DNA of 64,000 nucleotides from Corallococcus sp. NCRR (lineage in GTDB: Bacteria; Myxococcota; Myxococcia; Myxococcales; Myxococcaceae): NCBI RefSeq assembly GCF_026965535.1, contig NZ_CP114039.1:5952001-6016000 (forward strand), read 5' to 3'. Within the stretch, counting starts at the first letter, position 1; each line of letters starts with the position of its first letter. This document shows positions 7,121-19,774 of the stretch, piece by piece. The notes below the pieces were generated by a model. It saw nothing but the letters and a program-made list of their open reading frames with translations, was not told the DNA's origin and did no database searches. Both the position numbers and the translations under genes were made by a program.

Positions 7121-8155
7121 CTAGTCCAGTCCCCGCTCCCACAGGTCGTCTTCATCCAGACCCATCAGGTGACCGACTTCGTGCATCACCGTGATGCCAA
7201 TCTGTTCGATCAGCTCCTCGCGGGTGCGCGCGAAGCGCTCCAGGTTCTTCTGGTACAGCACGATGGAGGGCGGGAAGTGATCCGCCGCGTCCATCACGCT
7301 GCGCTCGCCCACGGGCGTGCCCCGGAACACCCCCAGGATGCACGGCGACAGCGGCGGCTGCTGACCCAGCAGGTCCTCATCCGACGGCAGGTCCTCCACC
7401 GCCAGCGTCACGTTGTCCATGTACTGCTTCACCTGCGAGGGCAGGGCGCGCATCGCGTCCTCCACCGCGCGGTCGAACGCCGCCTCCTCCAGGGCCACCG
7501 GCGGCGGCAGCTCCTCCGGCGCCAGCGCCTGCGCCCGGGCGAAGCGCTTCTTCGCCTCCTTCGCGTCCCCGCGCCGTTCGGCGACGAGCCCCAGGTAGTG
7601 GTGCGCCCACGCCTCGTCCGGCGCGTCCTTGAGCACCCGCTCGAAGGCCTCCTGCGCGGGTGCGAAGCGGCACAGTTCGAACAGCGCGATGCCCCGCTCC
7701 AACTGCGCGTCCGGAGAGCGCGGCATGTGCGTCAGCGCCTGGTCCAGGATCTTCAGCGCGGACTCGCACTCCCCCAGCTGGTTGAGGCCCATGCCCTCCA
7801 GGAGGAGGAATTCGTAGACCAGCTCCACGTCGTCCGCCCGCTGCGCCAGCTTCCGCCCGCGGCCACACCACTCCAGCCCCTCCTCCACCGCCTCGCGGTC
7901 CTCGCCGGTGCGGCACACGAGGAATTCCGCCGCGCCGAAGAGGATCTCCAGGTCTTCCGGGGCCAGCTTGAGGGCGGCGCCATAGGCCTTGCCGGCGTCC
8001 TCCAGGCGGCCCACCTCCACCAGCGCGGCGGCCCGGTAGTGCAGGGCTTCTGGTGAATCCGGAACGTCCCGGAGCAGGGCGTCGGCGCTGGCGAGCGCGG
8101 CCTCGAAGTCCCTCGCCTCGAAGGCGTCCGCGACCCCCTCCAGCCGCGCGTCCAT
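7121..8155 (-). CDS. TPR protein with C-terminal zincin-like metallopeptidase domain
   Basis: The first ~240 residues are tetratricopeptide repeats (PEALHYRAAALVEVGRLEDA, APEDLEILFGAAEFLV, AWAHHYLGLVAERRGDA), a protein-binding scaffold. The last ~110 residues fit the minimal metallopeptidase family Zincin_1: LIEQIGITVMHEVGHLMGLDED has the HExxH zinc motif (HEVGH) followed by Gly and Asp. A 13-residue longer start at 8194 exists, but GGGGAGG lies eight bases before the ATG at 8155, so I prefer that one. There is no signal peptide, so the protein is probably cytoplasmic. Zincin_1 alone is usually ~110-130 residues; the long TPR extension suggests a regulated or targeted peptidase, but its substrate is unknown. 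Confidence 0.8.
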   Translation of the reverse strand: MDARLEGVADAFEARDFEAALASADALLRDVPDSPEALHYRAAALVEVGRLEDAGKAYGAALKLAPEDLEILFGAAEFLVCRTGEDREAVEEGLEWCGRGRKLAQRADDVELVYEFLLLEGMGLNQLGECESALKILDQALTHMPRSPDAQLERGIALFELCRFAPAQEAFERVLKDAPDEAWAHHYLGLVAERRGDAKEAKKRFARAQALAPEELPPPVALEEAAFDRAVEDAMRALPSQVKQYMDNVTLAVEDLPSDEDLLGQQPPLSPCILGVFRGTPVGERSVMDAADHFPPSIVLYQKNLERFARTREELIEQIGITVMHEVGHLMGLDEDDLWERGLD

Positions 8156-8282
8156 GTCCCGCGCCTCCCCTTGCTTCGCCATGCGCTTCGCCATACGGGC
8201 AGGCAGCTAAGAAGCCGCCCTTCGCGTTGTCAACGACCGGCGTCGCTGTTACCTTCCAGCGCCCCGTTTTGGCCCGAACCCC

Positions 8283-8639
8283 GTGAACATCCTGGTCGTC
8301 GATGACGATTACGAGCTGTGCACCATGCTCTCTCGCTACCTGGAGATGCATGGCTACACCGTGTTCTCGGCGTCGGACGCGCTCCAGGCGCTGGACATCA
8401 TGGAGCGCCACCCCGTGGGGCTGGTCATCACCGACTACCTGATGCCCCACCTGGACGGCATCCACTTCACGGAGATGCTGAAGGCGGACCCCCGCTTCCA
8501 GAACATCTCCGTCCTGATGATGACCGCCAGCACGGACGCCAACATCTCCGACCGGGGCCTGCGCAAGGGCGTGGCCATCACCCTGCAGAAGCCCCTGGAC
8601 ATGGGGCAACTGCTCAACCTCGTGCGCTTCGCGGAGTAG
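8283..8639 (+). CDS. Single-domain response regulator (CheY-like receiver)
   Basis: The 118-residue product is a receiver domain only. The acidic pocket is D7-D9 (VVDDD), the phospho-acceptor is D51 (VITDYLMP), T81 sits in MMTAS and the conserved Lys is K103 (LQKP). No output domain is attached, so it must act by binding a partner or as a phosphate relay. It starts with GTG and is divergent from the TPR-zincin gene. A weak TTGTCA-N17-TACCTT promoter may lie at 8227-8255. It precedes the groEL promoter on the same strand. Orphan receivers beside groEL and the nearby hybrid kinase suggest a shared stress or polarity circuit, but that link is only positional. Confidence 0.88.
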   Translation: MNILVVDDDYELCTMLSRYLEMHGYTVFSASDALQALDIMERHPVGLVITDYLMPHLDGIHFTEMLKADPRFQNISVLMMTASTDANISDRGLRKGVAITLQKPLDMGQLLNLVRFAE

Positions 8640-8717
8640 GGCCTTCCCCGGGCGTCCCGGGCCCCCACCCGAGCGGGCCGGAAGGCGTCCTCAGGCCCAC
8701 ACGCCTGCCCCTTTCCG

Positions 8718-8745
8718 TTGACATCGTCGATGCGGCCCTTATGTT
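8718..8745 (+). promoter_or_regulatory. Housekeeping-type promoter of groEL
   Basis: A perfect -35 hexamer TTGACA at 8718-8723 is followed after 16 bases by TATGTT at 8740-8745 (4 of 6 matches to TATAAT). The -10 box runs directly into the CIRCE operator. Repressor bound there would therefore block initiation. Confidence 0.7.
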
Positions 8746-8770
8746 GGCGCTCGACATGGCCGAGTGCTAA
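8744..8770 (+). promoter_or_regulatory. CIRCE operator (HrcA binding site)
   Basis: TTGGCGCTC - nine bases - GAGTGCTAA matches the CIRCE consensus TTAGCACTC-N9-GAGTGCTAA. The right arm is perfect and the left arm has two substitutions (A to G at positions 3 and 6). It lies 48 bases upstream of the groEL ATG and overlaps the -10 box, as expected for heat-inducible chaperonin control by HrcA. Confidence 0.88.
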
Positions 8771-8809
8771 CGGCCATCCCCATTCTCAGAAATTCCCCAA
8801 GTATTCTAG

Positions 8810-10462
<1,653 letters not shown>

Positions 10463-10503
10463 GCCGGCATCCAGGCTCCGTAGCTCCGTAGAGGGTTTTC
10501 CGG

Positions 10504-10551
10504 CCCCGGTGGGCCTCGCGAGAGCGGGGCGCCCGGGGCTGGAGTCTTTTT
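10504..10551 (+). terminator. Probable terminator after groEL
   Basis: A GC-rich inverted repeat, CCCCGG at 10504-10509 against CCGGGG at 10533-10538 with further inner pairing (GGGC/GCCC), is followed by CTTTTT at 10546-10551. The T run is eight bases beyond the stem, so it is not a textbook case. It lies between the converging groEL and kinase genes. Confidence 0.4.
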
Positions 10552-12080
10552 CAGGAAGCGGTCTTCTTGAAGGCCAGTCCCAGCTCGCGGCTGAGCGCCG
10601 AGGTGTCGGAGAGCAGCTTGGGCAGGCACGCGGCGGCCCCGGCGCGCAGGGACGCCAGCGCCGTGTCCATGGTGAGGTGCTCGGCCAGCACGACGAAGGG
10701 CGCGCCCTGGCTCAGGGCCCGGGCCAGCTCCAGCGCCTTCTTGCCGTAGGCCGGCGCGAAGTCCCACGACACCACCACGCCCACGGGCGGCTCCATCGTG
10801 GCCACCTCCGCGCCCGCGACGACGCGCGCCTCCAGGCCCAGGAGCGTCAGCGCCTCTGAAATCAGCCGCGCGGTGGCCGGGTTGTCCTCCAGCACGTCCA
10901 CCCGGCGCACAGCGGCGCTGGGGGCGGGGACGGGCGGCGCGGCCGGCGTGTACAGCGCCTGCCGCAAGAGCGCGCGCACCTGGCGGATGTCGTCGAAGGG
11001 CTTGAGCAGGTAGTCCACCACGCCCAGTTGCAGCGCCTGCTGCGTCGTCACCAGCGAGGGGTAGCCCGTCATCAGGATGACGCGCGACGCGGGGTCCAGC
11101 TTCCGCGCGTGCTGGGCCAGCTCCAGGCCGGAGATGCCGGGCAGGTTCTTGTCCGTGACGATGAGGTCCACTCGGGACGAGCGGAGGATTTCGAGCGCGG
11201 CCTCGCCGGTGGCCGCTTCAATGACCTCGCACTCCTTGTCCATCAGGTCCTTGAAGACCATCCGGATGATGCCCTCGTCGTCCACCACCAGCAGGCGCTT
11301 GCGCGGCGGGCGCGGCGCGTCCGTGGGAGGGAAGAGCACGCGGAACACCGTGGCCGGGGGCGGCACTTCGCGCAGCGTCGTGGGCGGCACCAACGCAATC
11401 TGCGCCTGGTGCTCCTGCGCGATTCTCCGGCAGACGGCGAGCCCCAGGCCCGTGCCGCGTTTGCTGGCGGAGACGTAGGGCTCGAAGATGCGTGTCTTGA
11501 GCTCGTCCGGGATGCCCGGTCCCCAGTCGGACACGTAGAGGGCCGCGGAGGCGCCTTCGCGCGCGAGCGTCACCTTCACGCGGCCCCGGCCGGACATGGC
11601 GTCGCGAGCATTGTTGAGCAGGTTGAGCGTGAGCTGCTCAATCAGCCGCGCGTTGCCCTGGATGGTGAGGTCCTCGGGGGCCTCCACCTCCAGGGAGATG
11701 CGGGCCGAGTCCGGGTTGACGCTGAACACCTTCGCCGCCGCCCAGATGGGCGCGGCCAGGGACAGCCGCTGCTGCGGGGCCGGCCGCTCGCTGGCCAGCC
11801 GGATGAAGTCGGAGACGATCTGCTCCATCCGCTCCACCTGCGCGAGCAGCAGCTTCAGCGGGCCGCTGGAGCCTGCCTCCTCGGCCAGCAGTTGGGCGTA
11901 GGCCTTCGCGCCCAGCAGGGGCTGACGCAGCTCGTGGAGGACCTCCGCGGCGACCTGGTGGGTGTGGGCGTTGGCGCGTTGCAGCGCCACGGCCGCGAGC
12001 CGTGCCTTCTCCAGGTCCCCCGCGTCCAGGGCCTGGAGCAGCTGCGCGAGCGGCGAGGGGGTCTCCATGCTCGGGAGCAT
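10551..12080 (-). CDS. Hybrid sensor histidine kinase with receiver and degenerate receiver
   Basis: Domains in order over 509 residues: a short N-terminal helix region; a HisKA-type dimerisation domain with the phospho-histidine in EVLHELRQPLLG near residue 50; an ATPase domain with LNLLNNARDAM (N box), DWGPGIPD (G1) and GTGLGLAVCRR (G2); a canonical receiver near residues 270-385 (LLVVDDEG, VDLIVTDKNLPG, LLKPFDD); and a second C-terminal receiver-like domain near 400-509. The last is degenerate, with VDVLEDNP at its start and GVVVSWDF where the acceptor strand should be. There is no membrane segment, so sensing is cytoplasmic. The gene is convergent with groEL and divergent from encC. A second possible start is at 12068. 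Confidence 0.88.
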   Translation of the reverse strand: MLPSMETPSPLAQLLQALDAGDLEKARLAAVALQRANAHTHQVAAEVLHELRQPLLGAKAYAQLLAEEAGSSGPLKLLLAQVERMEQIVSDFIRLASERPAPQQRLSLAAPIWAAAKVFSVNPDSARISLEVEAPEDLTIQGNARLIEQLTLNLLNNARDAMSGRGRVKVTLAREGASAALYVSDWGPGIPDELKTRIFEPYVSASKRGTGLGLAVCRRIAQEHQAQIALVPPTTLREVPPPATVFRVLFPPTDAPRPPRKRLLVVDDEGIIRMVFKDLMDKECEVIEAATGEAALEILRSSRVDLIVTDKNLPGISGLELAQHARKLDPASRVILMTGYPSLVTTQQALQLGVVDYLLKPFDDIRQVRALLRQALYTPAAPPVPAPSAAVRRVDVLEDNPATARLISEALTLLGLEARVVAGAEVATMEPPVGVVVSWDFAPAYGKKALELARALSQGAPFVVLAEHLTMDTALASLRAGAAACLPKLLSDTSALSRELGLAFKKTAS

Positions 12081-12196
12081 GGCGGAGGCAGGTGTTCACG
12101 CGCAACGCACCCCCCGCGGGATTCGGTTGACCGCGCTCGCGACCAAACGGATGCTCGCGCACGCCCTCCAGCCCGGCCCTGGTCGCCGAGGTCCTC

Positions 12197-12586
12197 ATGC
12201 CGCAGACGAACCCGTTCCACTCGCTGGTGCCCCGGAAGCTGACGGACTCCGAACTGGCCCGCTCCATCCGGCTCAACATCGAGGCGGAGCTGGACGCCAT
12301 CAACCTCTACGCCGCGCACCTGGACGCGACGGACAACGAGGAGGCGAAGGCCATCCTGCGGCACGTCATGGACGAGGAGCGCGAGCACGCGGCCCTCTTC
12401 TGGCAGCTCATCGCGCGGTTGGATCCGGAACAGGCCCAGCACGACCGCGAGGCGTCCCAGAAGTACCGCCTCATCACCACCGGCGCCTCCCACGAAGAGG
12501 TGGAGGCGGTGAGCGAGGGCGGCGGCAGCGAGGCCGCCGAGGTGGAGCTGCCCAAGCGGCTCACCGTGGGCAGCCTGCGCAAGTAG
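12197..12586 (+). CDS. encC: EncC-type encapsulin cargo, ferritin-like iron oxidase
   Basis: The 129-residue protein has an encapsulated-ferritin core (SIRLNIEAELDAINLYAAHL...VMDEEREHAALFWQ). The residues that would bind iron, E31, E61 and H64, sit one position from E32, E62 and H65 of the characterised EncFtn. An acidic Gly-rich linker leads to a C-terminal LTVGSLRK (122-129), nearly identical to the LTVGSLRR targeting peptide that loads cargo into the M. xanthus encapsulin shell. It should oxidise Fe(II) inside the encapsulin for iron storage and oxidative-stress protection. The shell gene encA is not in the window, which agrees with encC lying apart from encA in M. xanthus. GAGG lies five bases before the ATG. 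Confidence 0.92.
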   Translation: MPQTNPFHSLVPRKLTDSELARSIRLNIEAELDAINLYAAHLDATDNEEAKAILRHVMDEEREHAALFWQLIARLDPEQAQHDREASQKYRLITTGASHEEVEAVSEGGGSEAAEVELPKRLTVGSLRK

Positions 12587-12604
12587 CGCGCGCGTCCGGC
12601 TTCT

Positions 12605-13993
12605 TCAGCCCTGTCCCTGCGGGGGCGGGGGATTCTGGCGGCGCTCGGCCGGGGTGGCTTCCAGGTCCTGCGCCGCCATGTAGACGACGTTCCGGGTGCC
12701 CCGCTTGCCCCGGTACATGGCCCGGTCGGACAGGTCCAGCAGGTGGTCCTTGTCCTGTGCGTGCTCCGGGAAGCTGGCCACGCCGATGCAGGTGGTGAGC
12801 TTGAGCGCCAGCCCCTCGCGGCCCAGGAACTGATGGGTCTCCATGGTGCGGCGGATGCGCTCGGCGACCTTGAGGGCCCCGCCGGAGTCCGTGCCGCGCA
12901 GCAGCACCACGTACTCGTCGCCGCCGAAGCGCGCCACCACGTCCGGGTCGCGCACGCAGCCCTTGAGCACGCGCGCGGCCTCCACCAGCACGCGCGAGCC
13001 CACCAGGTGCCCGTGCGTGTCGTTGATGGCCTTGAAGCGGTCCAGGTCCAGGAACAGCAGGGAGAAGGGGCGCTCCGTCTGCAGGGCCTCGTTCACCTCG
13101 CGGTCCAGCACCAGGTGCAGGTAGCGCGTGTTGAACAGGCGGGTGAGGTCGTCGACGTAGGCCAGGTCCTCCACGGCGGCGAAGCGGCCCAGGTTGCGCA
13201 GGGCCAGCGCCCAGTTGCGCACGAGGAAGCCCACGGTCTCCGCGTGGTGCTCCGCGGGCGCGCTGTCGTGGAAGAGCACCGCGTGGCCCAGCACCAGCTC
13301 TCCGTCCACGGCGGGGAAGGAGAGGGTGCGCGGCCAGGGGACCTGGAGCCCGTCGAGCTCCACGGGCGTGCGCGTGCCCGAGAGCCGCTCGATGAGCTGC
13401 GGGACGAGCGCTTCGTGCAGGTCCACCGGCAGCCCGCGCATGCCGTGCGAGCGGAAGCCCGCGCCGTTGGGGTCGCGCTCCAGGAGCATCACCGCGGAGG
13501 CGTTGGCCATGGACTCCAGCGCGTCCGAGGCGGCCGTGGACAGCCGCTCGCGGTCGAGCGTGGTGGCGATTCGCTGGCCTGCCTCCAGCAGCGCGACGTG
13601 CTGGCGCAGGGACGCGTTCTCACGCATCAGGTCTCGCGTGGTGAGCGCGCGGCGCAGCGCGTGCTCCAGGGCCTCCGGCGCCACGGGCTTGACCAGGTAC
13701 TCCGCCGCGCCGCTCTTGATGGCGCGCACCGCGGGGGCCACCTTGTCCAGGCCGGTGATGACGAGCACCTCCACGCCGGGGTAGCGCTCGCGCACGTGGC
13801 GCAGCACCTCCATGCCGTCGCCGCCGGGGAGGATGAGGTCCGTCACCACCGCGTCGAACCGCTCCGCGGAGAGGGCGGCCTTCGCGTCCGCCACGGTGGG
13901 GACCGCCGTGACGAGATGTCCCGCGGCCGTGAGGTAGTCGCCGTAGAGGTTGCGGGCGATCTTTTCGTCGTCGACGAGGAGCAGTCGCGCCAT
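12605..13993 (-). CDS. Response regulator with GGDEF domain (diguanylate cyclase)
   Basis: The 462-residue protein starts with a receiver (LLLVDDEK, phospho-acceptor D52 in VVTDLILPG, LVKPVAPE). It continues with a GAF-like middle region of ~150 residues and ends with a GGDEF domain. The active motif is GGDEY at 357-361, a functional variant, and the inhibitory I-site RxxD is at 348-351 (RDPD), exactly five residues upstream. It should make c-di-GMP when phosphorylated and be feedback-inhibited. A Pro/Gln-rich tail follows. It is convergent with encC and divergent from the CheW-like gene, inside the groEL2-romR block. c-di-GMP controls motility and development in these bacteria. Confidence 0.92.
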   Translation of the reverse strand: MARLLLVDDEKIARNLYGDYLTAAGHLVTAVPTVADAKAALSAERFDAVVTDLILPGGDGMEVLRHVRERYPGVEVLVITGLDKVAPAVRAIKSGAAEYLVKPVAPEALEHALRRALTTRDLMRENASLRQHVALLEAGQRIATTLDRERLSTAASDALESMANASAVMLLERDPNGAGFRSHGMRGLPVDLHEALVPQLIERLSGTRTPVELDGLQVPWPRTLSFPAVDGELVLGHAVLFHDSAPAEHHAETVGFLVRNWALALRNLGRFAAVEDLAYVDDLTRLFNTRYLHLVLDREVNEALQTERPFSLLFLDLDRFKAINDTHGHLVGSRVLVEAARVLKGCVRDPDVVARFGGDEYVVLLRGTDSGGALKVAERIRRTMETHQFLGREGLALKLTTCIGVASFPEHAQDKDHLLDLSDRAMYRGKRGTRNVVYMAAQDLEATPAERRQNPPPPQGQG

Positions 13994-14045
13994 GACTGTT
14001 CAGGGCTTAGCACCCAACGCTGGAAGGCTGCTAGGGTCCCCGGCC

Positions 14046-14858
14046 GTGCCCTTTGAAAGCGGACGGCGGCTCTGCCTGCTGGTGGAGGCCGGTGAGACGC
14101 GCTACGCGGTGGAGGCCACGTCCGTCATCGAGGTCGCGATGCCGGGCGCTCGCGGCGCGAGTCTGCGCGGCGTACTGGAAGTGAAGGACCTCGCCGCGCT
14201 GCTCGGCGGCCTGCCCGAGGACGTGCCGGGCATGGTGGTGGTCCTGGACGTCAGCCCCACGCTCGCGGTGCGGGTGCGCGCCGTGGTGGAGGTCGCGGAT
14301 GTCGCGAGGGATCCGTTCTTCTTGCTGCCGCCGGGCCTGGCGGACTCGCTGGCGCCGCTGAGCCGGGGCGCGGTGCTGCACAAGGACCGGCTGTACCTGG
14401 AGCTCATCGTGGAGGCGCTGCCGCACCGGGCAGGCCCGCGCGCGGCCCCGCCGGAGCCCCGGCCCGTGCACTGGGCGGACGAGCCCCCGGAGCGGGCGCT
14501 GGTGCTGGAGTCCCAGGGGGTGCTGTTCGGCGTCCCGCTCGCTTGCGTGTCCCAGGTGGTGCCCCGGGGCGAGGCGTTCAGCGTGCTCCCGGTGCAGAGC
14601 GGGCCGGTGGCGGGCGTCTATCCGCACGCGCAGGCGCTCTGGCCCATCTGTTCGATTCCAGCGCTGCTGGGCGCGCCGGCCCGGGTGGAGGAGCTGTTCG
14701 TCCTCACGGAGCTGGCGGGCCGGAACGTGGGGCTGGCAGCCACCCGGGTGCTCGGTGTGCTGCAGAAGTTCAAGCCGGCCGAGCTTCCCGGAACATTCCG
14801 GGCGCCGGGGCTGCCGGATCCGGTGATGTTACTGGACCTGCAGCGCATGTTTTCTTGA
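14046..14858 (+). CDS. CheW-like protein with two tandem CheW-type regions
   Basis: I start the gene at the GTG at 14046 (VPFESGRRLCLL), because the longer open frame would overlap the divergent cyclase gene. The ~270-residue product has two related CheW-like halves: LCLLVEAGETRYAVEATSVI at the start and RALVLESQGVLFGVPLACVS near residue 150. Each precedes a beta-rich segment (VVVLDVSPTLAVRVRAVVEV; LFVLTELAGRNVGLAATRVL). CheW domains couple receptors to CheA kinases. There is no CheA or receptor gene nearby, so it may work with a distant array or serve the neighbouring polarity regulator RomR, encoded 117 bases downstream on the same strand. Confidence 0.75.
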   Translation: MPFESGRRLCLLVEAGETRYAVEATSVIEVAMPGARGASLRGVLEVKDLAALLGGLPEDVPGMVVVLDVSPTLAVRVRAVVEVADVARDPFFLLPPGLADSLAPLSRGAVLHKDRLYLELIVEALPHRAGPRAAPPEPRPVHWADEPPERALVLESQGVLFGVPLACVSQVVPRGEAFSVLPVQSGPVAGVYPHAQALWPICSIPALLGAPARVEELFVLTELAGRNVGLAATRVLGVLQKFKPAELPGTFRAPGLPDPVMLLDLQRMFS

Positions 14859-14944
14859 TCGGCCCAAAGCGCGAATCCTAAGCTTCTCCGATTGACACAG
14901 GGCGTGCAGGCAGGCTTGCTCGCCCGAAATCTCAAACGAATTCA

Positions 14945-14962
14945 GGGGGGTATGCGCCCCCC
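14945..14962 (+). promoter_or_regulatory. G6/C6 hairpin in the romR leader
   Basis: GGGGGG-TATGCG-CCCCCC forms a perfect 6-bp G:C stem with a six-base loop, ending just before the GAGG ribosome site (14963-14966) and 13 bases before the romR ATG. A TTGACA at 14892-14897 upstream could be a -35 element, but I find no good -10. The hairpin could restrain translation. Confidence 0.4.
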
Positions 14963-14975
14963 GAGGCCGGAGCCG

Positions 14976-16241
14976 ATGCCCAAGAATCTGCTGATCGCCG
15001 ACGACTCGCTCACCATCCGCAAGGTGATCGGGATGATCTTCGCGACGGAAGACTTCCAGGTGACCGCGGTGGACAACGGGCTGGACGCCATCTCCCGCAC
15101 GCGCGAGCTGCGTCCGGACGTGGTGCTCGCCGACGTGATGATGCCGGGCAAGAGCGGCTACGAGGTCTGCGAGGCGCTCAAGAGCGACCCCTCCACGCAG
15201 GCCATCCCGGTGCTGCTGCTGGCCGGCACCTTCGAGGCGTTCGACGAGAACCGCGCGAAGGCCGCCCGGGCGGATGACCACATCACCAAGCCCTTCGAGA
15301 GCCAGATCCTCCTCGACAAGGTGAAGGCCCTGGTGGGCCAGAAGTCCAACACCATGCCCGCGTCCGCCGCGACGCGCGTGCTGCCGCAGACCGCCGCCCC
15401 GGTGGCTCCGGCCGGTGCGCCGCCCGCCGCCGCCGCGCCTCCGGGAGCGCGTCCCGCGGGTGCGCCGCCTCCGGGCGCTGTTCCTCCGGGTGCGCGTCCT
15501 CCGGGCGCGGGTATGCCGCCGCCGGGCGCGCGTCCTCCGGGCGCGGGTGTGCCGCCGCCGCCGGGCGCCGCGCGTCCGCTGCCGGGCGCTGTTCCTCCTG
15601 GCGCGCGTCCTCCGGGTGCGCCGCCTCCGGGCGCCATGCCGCCGGGTGCGCGTCCTCCGCCGGGTGCGCCGCCTCCGGGCATGGGCGCGCGTCCTCCGGG
15701 TGCGCCGCCTCCGGGCGCCATGCCTCCGGGTGCGCGTCCTCCGCCGGGCGCTGTTCCTCCTGGCGCGCGTCCTCCGGGTGCGCCGCCTCCGGGCATGGCC
15801 GCGCGTCCTCCGGGCCCTGGCGCCCCGAACATCCCGGGCGGCTTCCCGCGTCCTCCGGGCGCCGCGCCGCTGCCGTCCGCGCCTCCGCCCGCGGCGGTGC
15901 CTCCGGCCGCCCGTGCCCGGGATCCGTTCGGGCTGGGCGCTCCGGCCGCGCCCGCCGCTCAGGCGCGCACGGAGAGCATCCGCATCGAGGACTCGCTGCC
16001 CGAGCCCAGCGGCGCGGAGGAGATCTCCCTGGACATCGGTGGCCCTCCGGCGCCCGCCGCCACGCCCGCGCGCGCCCGTCCGGCCGCGGATGGCGGCGAG
16101 GCCCTGCTTCGCGAGGCGCTGTCGAAGGCGTCCCGCGAGGTCATCGAGAAGATCGCCTGGGAGGTCGTACCGCAGCTGGCGGAGACCATCATCCGGGAGG
16201 AGCTGGAGCGGCTCATCAAGGACCGCGAGACCCAGCATTGA
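14976..16241 (+). CDS. romR: RomR, response regulator of cell polarity and motility
   Basis: The 421-residue product matches RomR in layout and length: a receiver domain (LLIADDS, phospho-acceptor D53 in LADVMMPG, ITKPFE), a long low-complexity linker of Pro, Gly and Ala (PPGARPPGAPPPG units, about residues 145-310), and an acidic C-terminal helix region (SREVIEKIAWEVVPQL...REELERLIKD). In M. xanthus RomR sits at the poles, works with RomX as the exchange factor for the GTPase MglA, and sets front-rear polarity for gliding and type IV pili. The receiver and the C-terminal part both guide localisation. I use the ATG at 14976 with GAGG nine bases upstream. Longer frames to 14892 exist but add no domain. 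Confidence 0.93.
   Translation: MPKNLLIADDSLTIRKVIGMIFATEDFQVTAVDNGLDAISRTRELRPDVVLADVMMPGKSGYEVCEALKSDPSTQAIPVLLLAGTFEAFDENRAKAARADDHITKPFESQILLDKVKALVGQKSNTMPASAATRVLPQTAAPVAPAGAPPAAAAPPGARPAGAPPPGAVPPGARPPGAGMPPPGARPPGAGVPPPPGAARPLPGAVPPGARPPGAPPPGAMPPGARPPPGAPPPGMGARPPGAPPPGAMPPGARPPPGAVPPGARPPGAPPPGMAARPPGPGAPNIPGGFPRPPGAAPLPSAPPPAAVPPAARARDPFGLGAPAAPAAQARTESIRIEDSLPEPSGAEEISLDIGGPPAPAATPARARPAADGGEALLREALSKASREVIEKIAWEVVPQLAETIIREELERLIKDRETQH
15404..15905 (+). repeat. Degenerate Pro-Gly-Ala coding repeats in romR
   Basis: The linker DNA is built of short degenerate units such as CCTCCGGGTGCGCGTCCTCC encoding PPGARPP. Some longer blocks recur, for example the GARPPGAPPPGM segments near 15690 and 15775. 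Such tandem DNA is prone to length change, so linker length may vary between strains. Confidence 0.7.
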
Positions 16242-16264
16242 TTCGCAGTTCCCTCTGATTCCCC

Positions 16265-16286
16265 GCCGGCCCCGTCGGGGGCCGGC
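16265..16286 (+). promoter_or_regulatory. Strong hairpin between romR and valS
   Basis: GCCGGCCCC (16265-16273) pairs perfectly with GGGGCCGGC (16278-16286) around a four-base loop. There is no T run, so it may terminate romR in a GC-rich way. It ends eight bases before the valS ATG, and no other ribosome site is evident there, so it could also control valS translation. Confidence 0.5.
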
Positions 16287-16294
16287 CGCTTGCA

Positions 16295-19200
16295 ATGACT
16301 GACACGACTGAACTGTCCAAGGCCTACGAGCCCTCCGAAGTGGAGGCGCGGTGGTACAACCACTGGCTGGAGCGTGACTACTTCCGCGCCGAAGCCCCTT
16401 CCTCCAAGCCGCCGTTCAGCATCGTGCTGCCGCCGCCCAACGTGACGGGCAGCCTGCACATCGGCCACGCGCTCACCGCGACCATCCAGGACATCCTCAC
16501 GCGCTGGAAGCGGATGAGCGGCTTCAACGCGCTCTGGCTGCCCGGCACGGACCACGCGGGCATCGCCACGCAGATGGTCGTGGAGAAGGAGCTCAAGAAG
16601 ACGGAAGGCAAGAGCCGCCACGACCTGGGCCGCGAGGCGTTCCTCGAGCGCGTCTGGACGTGGAAGGGCAAGTTCGGCGCGCGCATCGGCGAGCAGCACC
16701 GCTACCTGGGCGCGTCCCTGGACTGGAGCCGCGAGCGCTTCACCATGGACGAGCAGTCCTCGGCCGCGGTGCGCGAGGTCTTCGTCCGGCTGTACGAAGA
16801 GGGCCTGATGTACCGGGCCCAGAAGCTCATCAACTGGTGCCCGTCCTGCCGCACGGCCCTCTCCGACCTGGAAGTGGAGCACGAGGAGAAGAACGGCTCG
16901 CTCTGGCACATCCGCTACCCGGTGAAGGACAGCGACCGCTCGCTCACCGTGGCGACGACGCGCCCGGAGACGCTGCTGGGCGACACGGCCGTCGCCGTGC
17001 ACCCGGATGACCCGCGCTACCTGGGCCTCGTGGGCCGCAGCGTGTCCCTGCCGCTCACCGACCGCGAGATCCCCATCATCGCGGACGGGGAGCTGGTGAA
17101 CATGGAGTTCGGCACCGGCGTGGTGAAGGTCACGCCCGCGCACGACTTCAACGACTACCAGACGGGCCTGCGCCACAAGCTGCCGATGCTGTCCATCCTG
17201 GACGAAGCGGCGCGCATGACGAAGGACACCGGCAAGTACGCGGGCCTGGATCGCGCGGAGGCGCGCAAGCAGGTGCTCGCGGACCTGACGGAGCTGGGCC
17301 TCCTGGAGAAGGAGGAGCCGCACAAGCTCAACGTGGGCACCTGCCAGCGCTGCGCCACGGTGGTGGAGCCGCGCCTGTCTCCGCAGTGGTTCATCAAGAT
17401 TGAACCGCTGGCGAAGCCGGCCATCCAGGCCGTGGAGGAGGGCCGCACGAAGTTCGTCCCGGAGTCGTGGACGAACACGTACTTCCACTGGATGAACAAC
17501 ATCCACGACTGGTGCGTGAGCCGCCAGCTGTGGTGGGGCCACCAGATCCCCGCGTGGTACTGCGGCGCGTGCACCCCGGCGGAGGAGCGCTCCAAGGACA
17601 CGGCGGACGTCATCGTGTCGCGCACGCCGCCAGAGTCCTGCCCGAAGTGCGGCGGCAAGGAGCTGACGCAGGATCCGGACGTGCTGGACACCTGGTTCTC
17701 GTCCGCGCTGTGGCCGTTCTCCACGCTGGGCTGGCCGAAGCAGACGGCGGATCTCCAGACCTTCTACCCGACGTCCGTGATGGAGACGGGCCACGACATC
17801 ATCTTCTTCTGGGTCGCCCGGATGATGATGATGGGCCTGCACTTCATGGGCGATGTGCCCTTCCGCACCGTGTACCTGCACGCGATGGTGCGCGACGAGA
17901 AGGGCGAGAAGATGTCCAAGACGAAGGGGAACGTCATCGATCCCCTGGACGTCATCCTCGGCGCGAAGGCGGAGTCGCTGCAGCCGTCCCTGCGCAACCG
18001 CTTCCCGCAGGGCATGCCCGCCCACGGCGCGGACGCGCTGCGCTTCACGCTGGCGTCGCTCACGCAGCAGGGCCGTGACATCAAACTGTCGATGGATCGC
18101 CTGGGTGGCTACAAGGCGTTCTGCAACAAGCTGTGGAACGCCAGCCGCTTCGCCCTGATGAACATGGGCGACTTCAGCCTGGACAAGACGCCGCTGGAGG
18201 GCCGCGAGCTGACGCTGGCGGACCGATGGATCCTCTCCCGGCTGCAGAAGGCGACCCAGGAGACGCGCGCGTCGCTGGAGGCGTTCGGCTTCGCGGAGGC
18301 CGCGTCCACGCTGTACCAGTTCCTGTGGGCGGAGTTCTGCGACTGGTACATCGAGCTGGCGAAGGGCTCGCTGTACGGCGAGGACGCGGAGGCCAAGGAC
18401 ACCACGCGCGCGGTGCTGGTGACGTGCCTGGACCGCATCCTGCGGCTGATGCACCCGTTCATGCCGTTCATCACCGAGGAGATCTGGCAGAAGCTACCGA
18501 TGTCCCGGCCCACGGAGAGCATCTGCATCGCGGCGTACCCGGAGCCGGAGTCGGCGTGGGTGGACGCGGCCGCGGAAGGCGAGATGGCGCCGGTCATCGC
18601 GGCCATCGAGGGCCTGCGCACGCTGCGCGGTGAGAGCAACCTGCCGCCGTCCGCCAAGGTGAAGGCGGTGGTGCAGAGCCCGGACGCGACGACGCGCGAG
18701 CTTCTGGAGCGCTGGCGCGCGTACCTGATGCCGCTCGCGGGCCTGTCCGAGGTGGTGGTGGGCCCCCCGGGCGCCAAGCCTCCGCAGGCGGCGGCGTTCG
18801 TGAGCGGCAACCTGGAGATCTACGTGCCCCTGGCGGGCCTGGTGGACCTGGACGCGGAGCGCGACCGCCTGAAGAAGGAGATCGCCCGCGCCGAGCAGGA
18901 GCTCGCCAGTTTGCAGCGCAAGCTGGACAACCCGAACTTCGTGGCCCGTGCTCCGCCGGACGTGGTGGAGAAGGACAAGGCCCGGGTGACGGAGCTCCAG
19001 GAGCGCACGGTCAAGCTGCAGGATCACCTCCAGCGCATCGCCCCGGAGCCCCCCATGTCCGAGACGCCGTCACCGTTACCGGGCAGCACCGAGTCCGAAG
19101 CCCCTGAAGCGTCCGAGTCCCCCGCGCCCGAGACAGCCCAGGTGAAGGTGGCCGCCGAGCCGCGGGCGCCGAAGGACGAAGAGGTGAACCTGGGGCAGGA

Positions 19201-19774
19201 GCTGAAGGGCGAGATTGAAGCCGAGGAGGCCTCGCAGGCGCCCCAGGCCGCGGATCCGGTGGTGGAGGAGGCCCTCAACAAGCTGCGCGAGGGCACCAAG
19301 GAAGGGCTGTCCGCGGCGGACCACCACGACCTGGGCGTCGCGTACATGAGCATGGGGCTCGTGGACGACGCGATGCGCGAGTTCGACCGGGCCAAGGAGG
19401 GCGGCGACACCCGCGAGGCGCCGGAGGGTTCGGCTGCGCCGGTGAAGAAGGCCTCCGCGAAGAAGGCGGCGGGCAAGAAGACGGCCGCGAAGAAGGCCGC
19501 CGCGACGAAGGCGGTGGGCAAGAAGGCCCCGGCGAAGAAGGCCTCCGCGAAGAAGGCGGCGGGCAAGAAGACGGCCGCGAAGAAGGCTCCGGCGAAGAAG
19601 GCCTCCGCGAAGAAGGCGGCGGGCAAGAAGACGGCCGCGAAGAAGGCGGCGGTGAAGAAGGCCCCGGCGAAGAAGGCTTCCGCGAAGAAGGCGGCGGGCA
19701 AGAAGACGGCCGCGAAGAAGGCCGCGGCGAAGAAGACCACTCGGGGCAAGCCGGCGCGCAAGGCGCGCCGGTAG
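16295..19774 (+). CDS. valS: Valyl-tRNA synthetase with TPR and histone-H1-like C-terminal extension
   Basis: Residues 1-920 are a complete class I valyl-tRNA synthetase. HIGH is at 55-58 ([11 protein letters not shown]), KMSKT at 539-543, the editing-domain segment [10 protein letters not shown] is present, as are the anticodon-binding part and the usual C-terminal coiled coil ([19 protein letters not shown]). It charges tRNA-Val in the cytoplasm. The frame then continues without a stop for ~239 residues: an acidic Pro/Glu linker starting MSETPSP at 921, one TPR-like motif ([20 protein letters not shown]), and from about residue 1052 a Lys/Ala tail of [13 protein letters not shown] units like histone H1 or HC1. 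ValS is normally 880-950 residues. The tail should bind nucleic acid. The ATG of residue 921 could also serve as an internal start for a separate protein. Confidence 0.95.
19451..19720 (+). repeat. Four ~45-bp coding repeats in the valS tail
   Basis: A block encoding [15 protein letters not shown] occurs at 19451, 19541, 19601 and 19676 with few base changes and short variable spacers ([15 protein letters not shown]). The near identity at DNA level points to recent expansion or slippage, and strain-to-strain length variation is likely. Confidence 0.85.

Follow-up and report, generated by a model that had tools for sequence, protein, structure and literature searches.

The window, the whole 64-kb stretch of the Corallococcus sp. 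NCRR chromosome analysed here, contains encC, a gene lying between a kinase and a cyclase gene and 3′ of a chaperonin gene (Table 1). The encC reading frame begins with ATG, occupies C1:5964197-5964583 of the chromosome (stop codon not counted) and ends in codons for LTVGSLRK.

Table 1. Features of the encC locus, in window coordinates except for the last row
Feature	Coordinates	Strand	Remarks
Response regulator gene	8283..8639	+	Matches MXAN_4468 in position, 5′ of groEL2; neighbour, outside encapsulin system
groEL	8819..10462	+	groEL2 by position; neighbour
Hybrid histidine kinase gene	10551..12080	-	Divergent from encC; neighbour
Probable encC promoter	12127..12155	+	TTGACC, 17-base spacer, GATGCT; conserved 5′ of encC; predicted activity
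encC	12197..12586	+	EncFtn-type ferritin-like encapsulin cargo, 129 aa; 7s8t E 9.3e-64; NF058679 and Pfam EncFtn-like over cut-off
E31 codon	12287..12289	+	Ferroxidase ligand; invariant 34/34; R. rubrum Glu32
Y38 codon	12308..12310	+	Di-iron site tyrosine; invariant 34/34; R. rubrum Tyr39
E61 codon	12377..12379	+	Ferroxidase ligand; invariant 34/34; R. rubrum Glu62
H64 codon	12386..12388	+	Ferroxidase ligand; invariant 34/34; R. rubrum His65
Targeting peptide LTVGSLRK	12560..12583	+	C-terminal end of EncC; LTVGSLRR type
Gene for response regulator with GGDEF domain (cyclase)	12605..13993	-	Convergent with encC; neighbour
Decayed encC remnants, genomes G036 and G038	L151:5365-5553 and L152:2274-2459		Between kinase and cyclase genes

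A phmmer comparison with proteins of solved structure gave Myxococcus xanthus EncC (MXAN_4464, PDB 7s8t) as the best match, over the whole length of the protein, and the EncC of M. xanthus strain AM003 is 82% identical to the window EncC. The Pfam EncFtn-like model scored 36.5 bits (cut-off 27), ahead of the Rubrerythrin and COQ7 models, which also exceeded their cut-offs, and NCBIfam NF058679 (EncB_fam) scored 112.7 bits (cut-off 90); two further NCBIfam models, TIGR04535 for encapsulin-associated ferritin-like proteins (78.1 against a cut-off of 125) and the EncB exception model, stayed below theirs. The structure match and the NF058679 score bear out the identification of an EncC cargo in the preliminary description, which does not owe its success to chance. 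M. xanthus EncC resembles the window protein in length (130 versus 129 aa), in its ligands and C-terminal peptide and in the position of its gene, 3′ of a response regulator gene and groEL2 and not adjoining encA, but its last residue is Arg rather than Lys. M. xanthus EncB (MXAN_3557, PDB 7s5c) shares the EncFtn-like core and a targeting peptide, but is only weakly similar to the window EncC (E 1.5e-6) and has its own counterpart in this genome, adjoining encA. Rhodospirillum rubrum EncFtn (Rru_A0973, PDB 5da5) is likewise distant in sequence (E 1.7e-7), although it shares the EncFtn core and carries its ligands at matching places.

In R. rubrum EncFtn, Glu32, Glu62 and His65 are described as the di-iron ligands, and Tyr39 is also named (PMC5012862). 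Because residues 26-85 of the query match residues 27-86 of the 5da5 chain, two segments of equal length offset by one residue, E31, E61, H64 and Y38 pair with Glu32, Glu62, His65 and Tyr39; the pairing was read from these coordinates. All four residues were invariant in the 34 distinct EncC sequences that we compared, the window EncC among them, and were also found in two EncC sequences outside this set (L032 and L038), so that the ligands E31, E61 and H64 listed in the preliminary description stand where it put them. By analogy with the solved homologues, paired EncC subunits would join E31, E61, H64 and Y38 into a di-iron ferroxidase centre, which would in turn oxidise Fe2+.

Docking peptide, shell gene and companion cargos

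The last eight residues of the window EncC, LTVGSLRK, recurred in 15/15 same-genus EncC sequences read, the window EncC included (a 16th, from G026, is cut by a contig end and was left out), and all 34 distinct sequences carry a docking-type peptide of the LTVGSLRR kind, other ends being LTVGSLRR, LTVGNLRR, FTVGNLRP, LTVGSMRP, LTVGGFRR and the like, with R, K or P as the last residue. The closest named records, at 98% identity, are from Corallococcus interemptor, C. carmarthensis and Corallococcus sp. AS-1-6, which identifies the genus as Corallococcus. The docking peptide proposed earlier was thus substantiated; the Lys said to replace the usual Arg is present, but it is genus-wide and hence not unusual. 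A review table gives the M. xanthus EncC peptide as RLTVGS(N)L(M), with no residue after Leu (PMC11202242), and against this entry the final Lys is therefore no notable departure; the same table lists SLGIGSLK(R) as the targeting peptide of R. rubrum EncFtn. Five deep or unusual relatives were also read: EncC ends in LTVGNLRR in two of them (L149 and L150) and in LTVGPLRGR in a third (L148), while L147, from a genome with encA (G043), has LTVGSGRAVQ followed by a longer tail in place of the usual peptide, and L103, from a metagenome-assembled genome (MAG) in which no encA match was found (G083), has no docking peptide.

The genome (9.79 Mb) contains one encA gene, at C1:7604808-7605596, which encodes a protein with 14 differences from M. 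xanthus EncA over 279 aligned residues. As the preliminary description had supposed, the shell is made elsewhere, from a gene 1.64 Mb away from encC, and the genome is not one that lacks a shell gene, which that description had named as the finding that would overturn its proposal. Directly 5′ of encA lies encB, whose product ends in LTIGSLRR followed by 11 residues, and a third docking-motif protein, EncD (NCBIfam NF058680 158.5 bits, cut-off 120; 8vjn E 8.8e-19), is encoded at C1:8971776-8972120 on the minus strand, 3.0 Mb from encC. All four parts of the M. xanthus encapsulin system are thus present here, at three separate loci. The locus tags of the M. xanthus genes are given as MXAN_3556 (encA), MXAN_3557 (encB), MXAN_4464 (encC) and MXAN_2410 (encD) and are widely spaced as well (PMC5959871), and the dispersed layout is the known arrangement, not an unusual one. 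Starting 24 bases past encA on the plus strand is a gene for a response regulator of 474 aa that by eye looks NtrC-type (L154:5700-7124), and this regulator is a likelier candidate for control of the shell genes than are the genes flanking encC.

A degenerate nucleotide pattern encoding LT[V/I/M]GxL and one further residue had 18 matches in the whole genome (8 for the reversed control), three of which lie in frame near a protein C-terminus, namely those of EncB, EncC and EncD. A tighter docking pattern matched four times (control, 0), at the same three genes and once outside any long frame, and neither pattern revealed a C-terminal match that would indicate a further cargo in the genome; the search is not exhaustive, since the patterns miss peptides resembling FTVGNLRP and MTVGSLRR.

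We consider it nearly certain (about 96%) that the gene encodes EncC, one of the pair of ferritin-like cargos carried by the iron-storage encapsulin that myxobacteria build from EncA, docked by LTVGSLRK. Published work on M. xanthus suggests that the peptide would bind the inside of the EncA shell; EncC would find the shell in the cytoplasm through this peptide, and cargo and shell genes therefore need not adjoin. EncB and EncD, encoded beside encA and at the third locus, would complete the system. Because the shell gene and two other known partners are present, the EncC gene is real but ordinary, part of a system that is already known: the four-part system of M. xanthus is confirmed in this genome in dispersed form, and the accepted picture is unchanged. 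Our literature search found no title or abstract beginning that concerned a Corallococcus encC.

Co-occurrence of the dispersed encapsulin genes

Among 96 family genomes, encC was found in 62, encA in 61 and encD in 61, encC being counted at E ~1e-37 or better; EncB and the one G080 match were among the weaker hits left uncounted. Both encA and encC were present in 60 genomes and both absent in 33, an agreement of 93/96; encA and encD agreed in 94/96, and all three genes occurred together in 59. These counts overstate the number of separate events, because the genomes are related and not independent. The exceptions were G080, with encA and encD and no strong encC match, G019, with encC and encD and no encA match, G083, with encC and no encA, and G043, in which encA and encC were present and encD was not found. 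G019, G080 and G083 are fragmented assemblies of 900-1050 contigs (960 for G019), with a completeness of 86-87% for G080 and G083 and a rating of 100% for G019; since G019 also has an EncB-like match, its encA may sit in an assembly gap.

G036 and G038, which lack both encA and encD and belong to the same genus as the encC-bearing G035, hold decayed remnants of encC in the interval separating the kinase gene from the cyclase gene. The coding piece scored 43 and 35, respectively, whereas the 500 single-base shuffles run for each reached 19 at best, and the upstream part of encC was also kept (scores 52 and 53; best shuffles 15 and 17). No remnant was found in the kinase-cyclase gaps of G033, G034 and G031. 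Joint absence together with decay of encC provides genetic support, from outside M. xanthus, for EncC having little role without a shell.

These observations bear on whether EncC might instead be a ferritin-like protein that acts free of any shell, the likeness of its C-terminus to a docking peptide being due to chance. The tail N-terminal to the peptide is variable across the 34 sequences, the final residue is not fixed, and two of the five deep or unusual relatives, one with encA (L147) and one without (L103), lack a normal peptide, all of which speaks for a free ferritin. Against it, a peptide of the docking type ends 34/34 sequences, the three proteins of this genome with the motif at the C-terminus are all known cargos, and encC is missing along with encA in nearly all genomes and has decayed in two. 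The loss of the docking peptide from the EncC of G083, where no encA was found, likewise favours a docked cargo. The M. xanthus orthologue, moreover, is reported to be loaded into shells in E. coli, eluting with the shell when co-expressed with EncA at ~150 EncC per cage (PMC9321382); ~61 EncC are reported for native M. xanthus shells (PMC12693112). We therefore regard a free ferritin as extremely improbable and retain EncC as a docked encapsulin cargo.

Promoter-like element and neighbouring genes

A pattern of TTGAC, 14-20 bases and GGATGCT was found 5′ of encC at 33/35 loci (including L032, which has a TTG start), with an actual spacing of 17 or 18 bases and, at 32 loci, an end lying 17-83 bases from the start codon; 15 of the 35 loci come from one genus. 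Neither L147 nor L148 showed the element, which occurs once in the 64-kb window and is missing from all five kinase-cyclase gaps without encC. Its conservation suggests that it is probably a sigma-70-like promoter from which encC would be transcribed alone. An alignment of the sequences 5′ of encC, encB and encD revealed a conserved TTGAC for encC and encB, but a regulatory motif common to the three genes was rejected, as no longer shared element could be discerned by eye; in Corallococcus, encD lies close 3′ of another gene. An Rfam scan of window positions 8000-16500 at gathering thresholds returned nothing.

We judge the chances evenly balanced that the dispersed encapsulin genes form one inherited unit, with encA, encC and encD kept or lost together although megabases apart, and with encC retaining in different genera a promoter of its own (TTGAC, 17-18 bases, GGATGCT), which would allow EncC dosage to be adjusted separately from that of the shell and EncB.

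The preliminary description had suggested that the chaperonin and signalling genes around encC link iron storage to stress control, and a tie of this kind could take the form of GroEL2 folding or loading the cargo, or of the kinase and cyclase controlling iron storage. The gene order is old, with the kinase gene 5′ and the cyclase gene 3′ of encC at 24/28 named loci and groEL2 5′ of encC on the same strand at 24/28 (L095 and L097 end at encC, and no neighbour gene was seen at L102), and encC and the kinase gene have a 116-base divergent intergenic region in common. In M. xanthus, MXAN_4468 adjoins groEL2 (MXAN_4467) and is close by tag to MXAN_4464 (PMC9040617), but a term search of the text of that paper, which deals with the regulator upstream of groEL2, found neither "encapsulin" nor "MXAN_4464". 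The kinase and cyclase genes are both on the opposite strand, and encC therefore shares no operon with its adjacent genes. We also examined seven of the 34 genomes without encC: the kinase gene was recovered at E 1e-80 in five (G036, G038, G031, G033 and G034, but not G010 or G011), and 5/5 of these keep the order groEL2-kinase-cyclase with no encC between, which argues that the block is independent of encC. Since the block persists without encC, and encC has a conserved promoter-like element of its own, the proposed link is unsupported, and we consider a tie to the neighbours very unlikely. One arrangement in its favour comes from the Deltaproteobacteria MAG G083 (87% complete), the genome noted above for an EncC without docking peptide and for the lack of an encA match, in which encC shares the strand of groEL2 and starts ~115 bases 3′ of it, without an intervening kinase gene (L103:112-2255). 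An encC expressed on its own, and not through the genes beside it, remains our preferred reading of the locus.

Two other genes of the window, both on the plus strand, were also noted. In the response regulator encoded at 14892-16241, the receiver domain precedes a long repeat linker rich in proline, glycine and alanine; in most relatives outside the closest Corallococcus, the match extends over about one third of the protein, the receiver part. A valyl-tRNA synthetase of 1159 aa (16295-19774) carries a long C-terminal extension past the tRNA-binding arm, which ends in a tail that is rich in lysine and alanine and resembles histone H1 (HC2 48.2 bits, cut-off 40). A query of residues ~853-1058, reaching from the arm to within the extension, found matches of 83-100% in 16/16 genus genomes; 12/13 more distant genomes gave matches too, in most cases to only a portion of the query.
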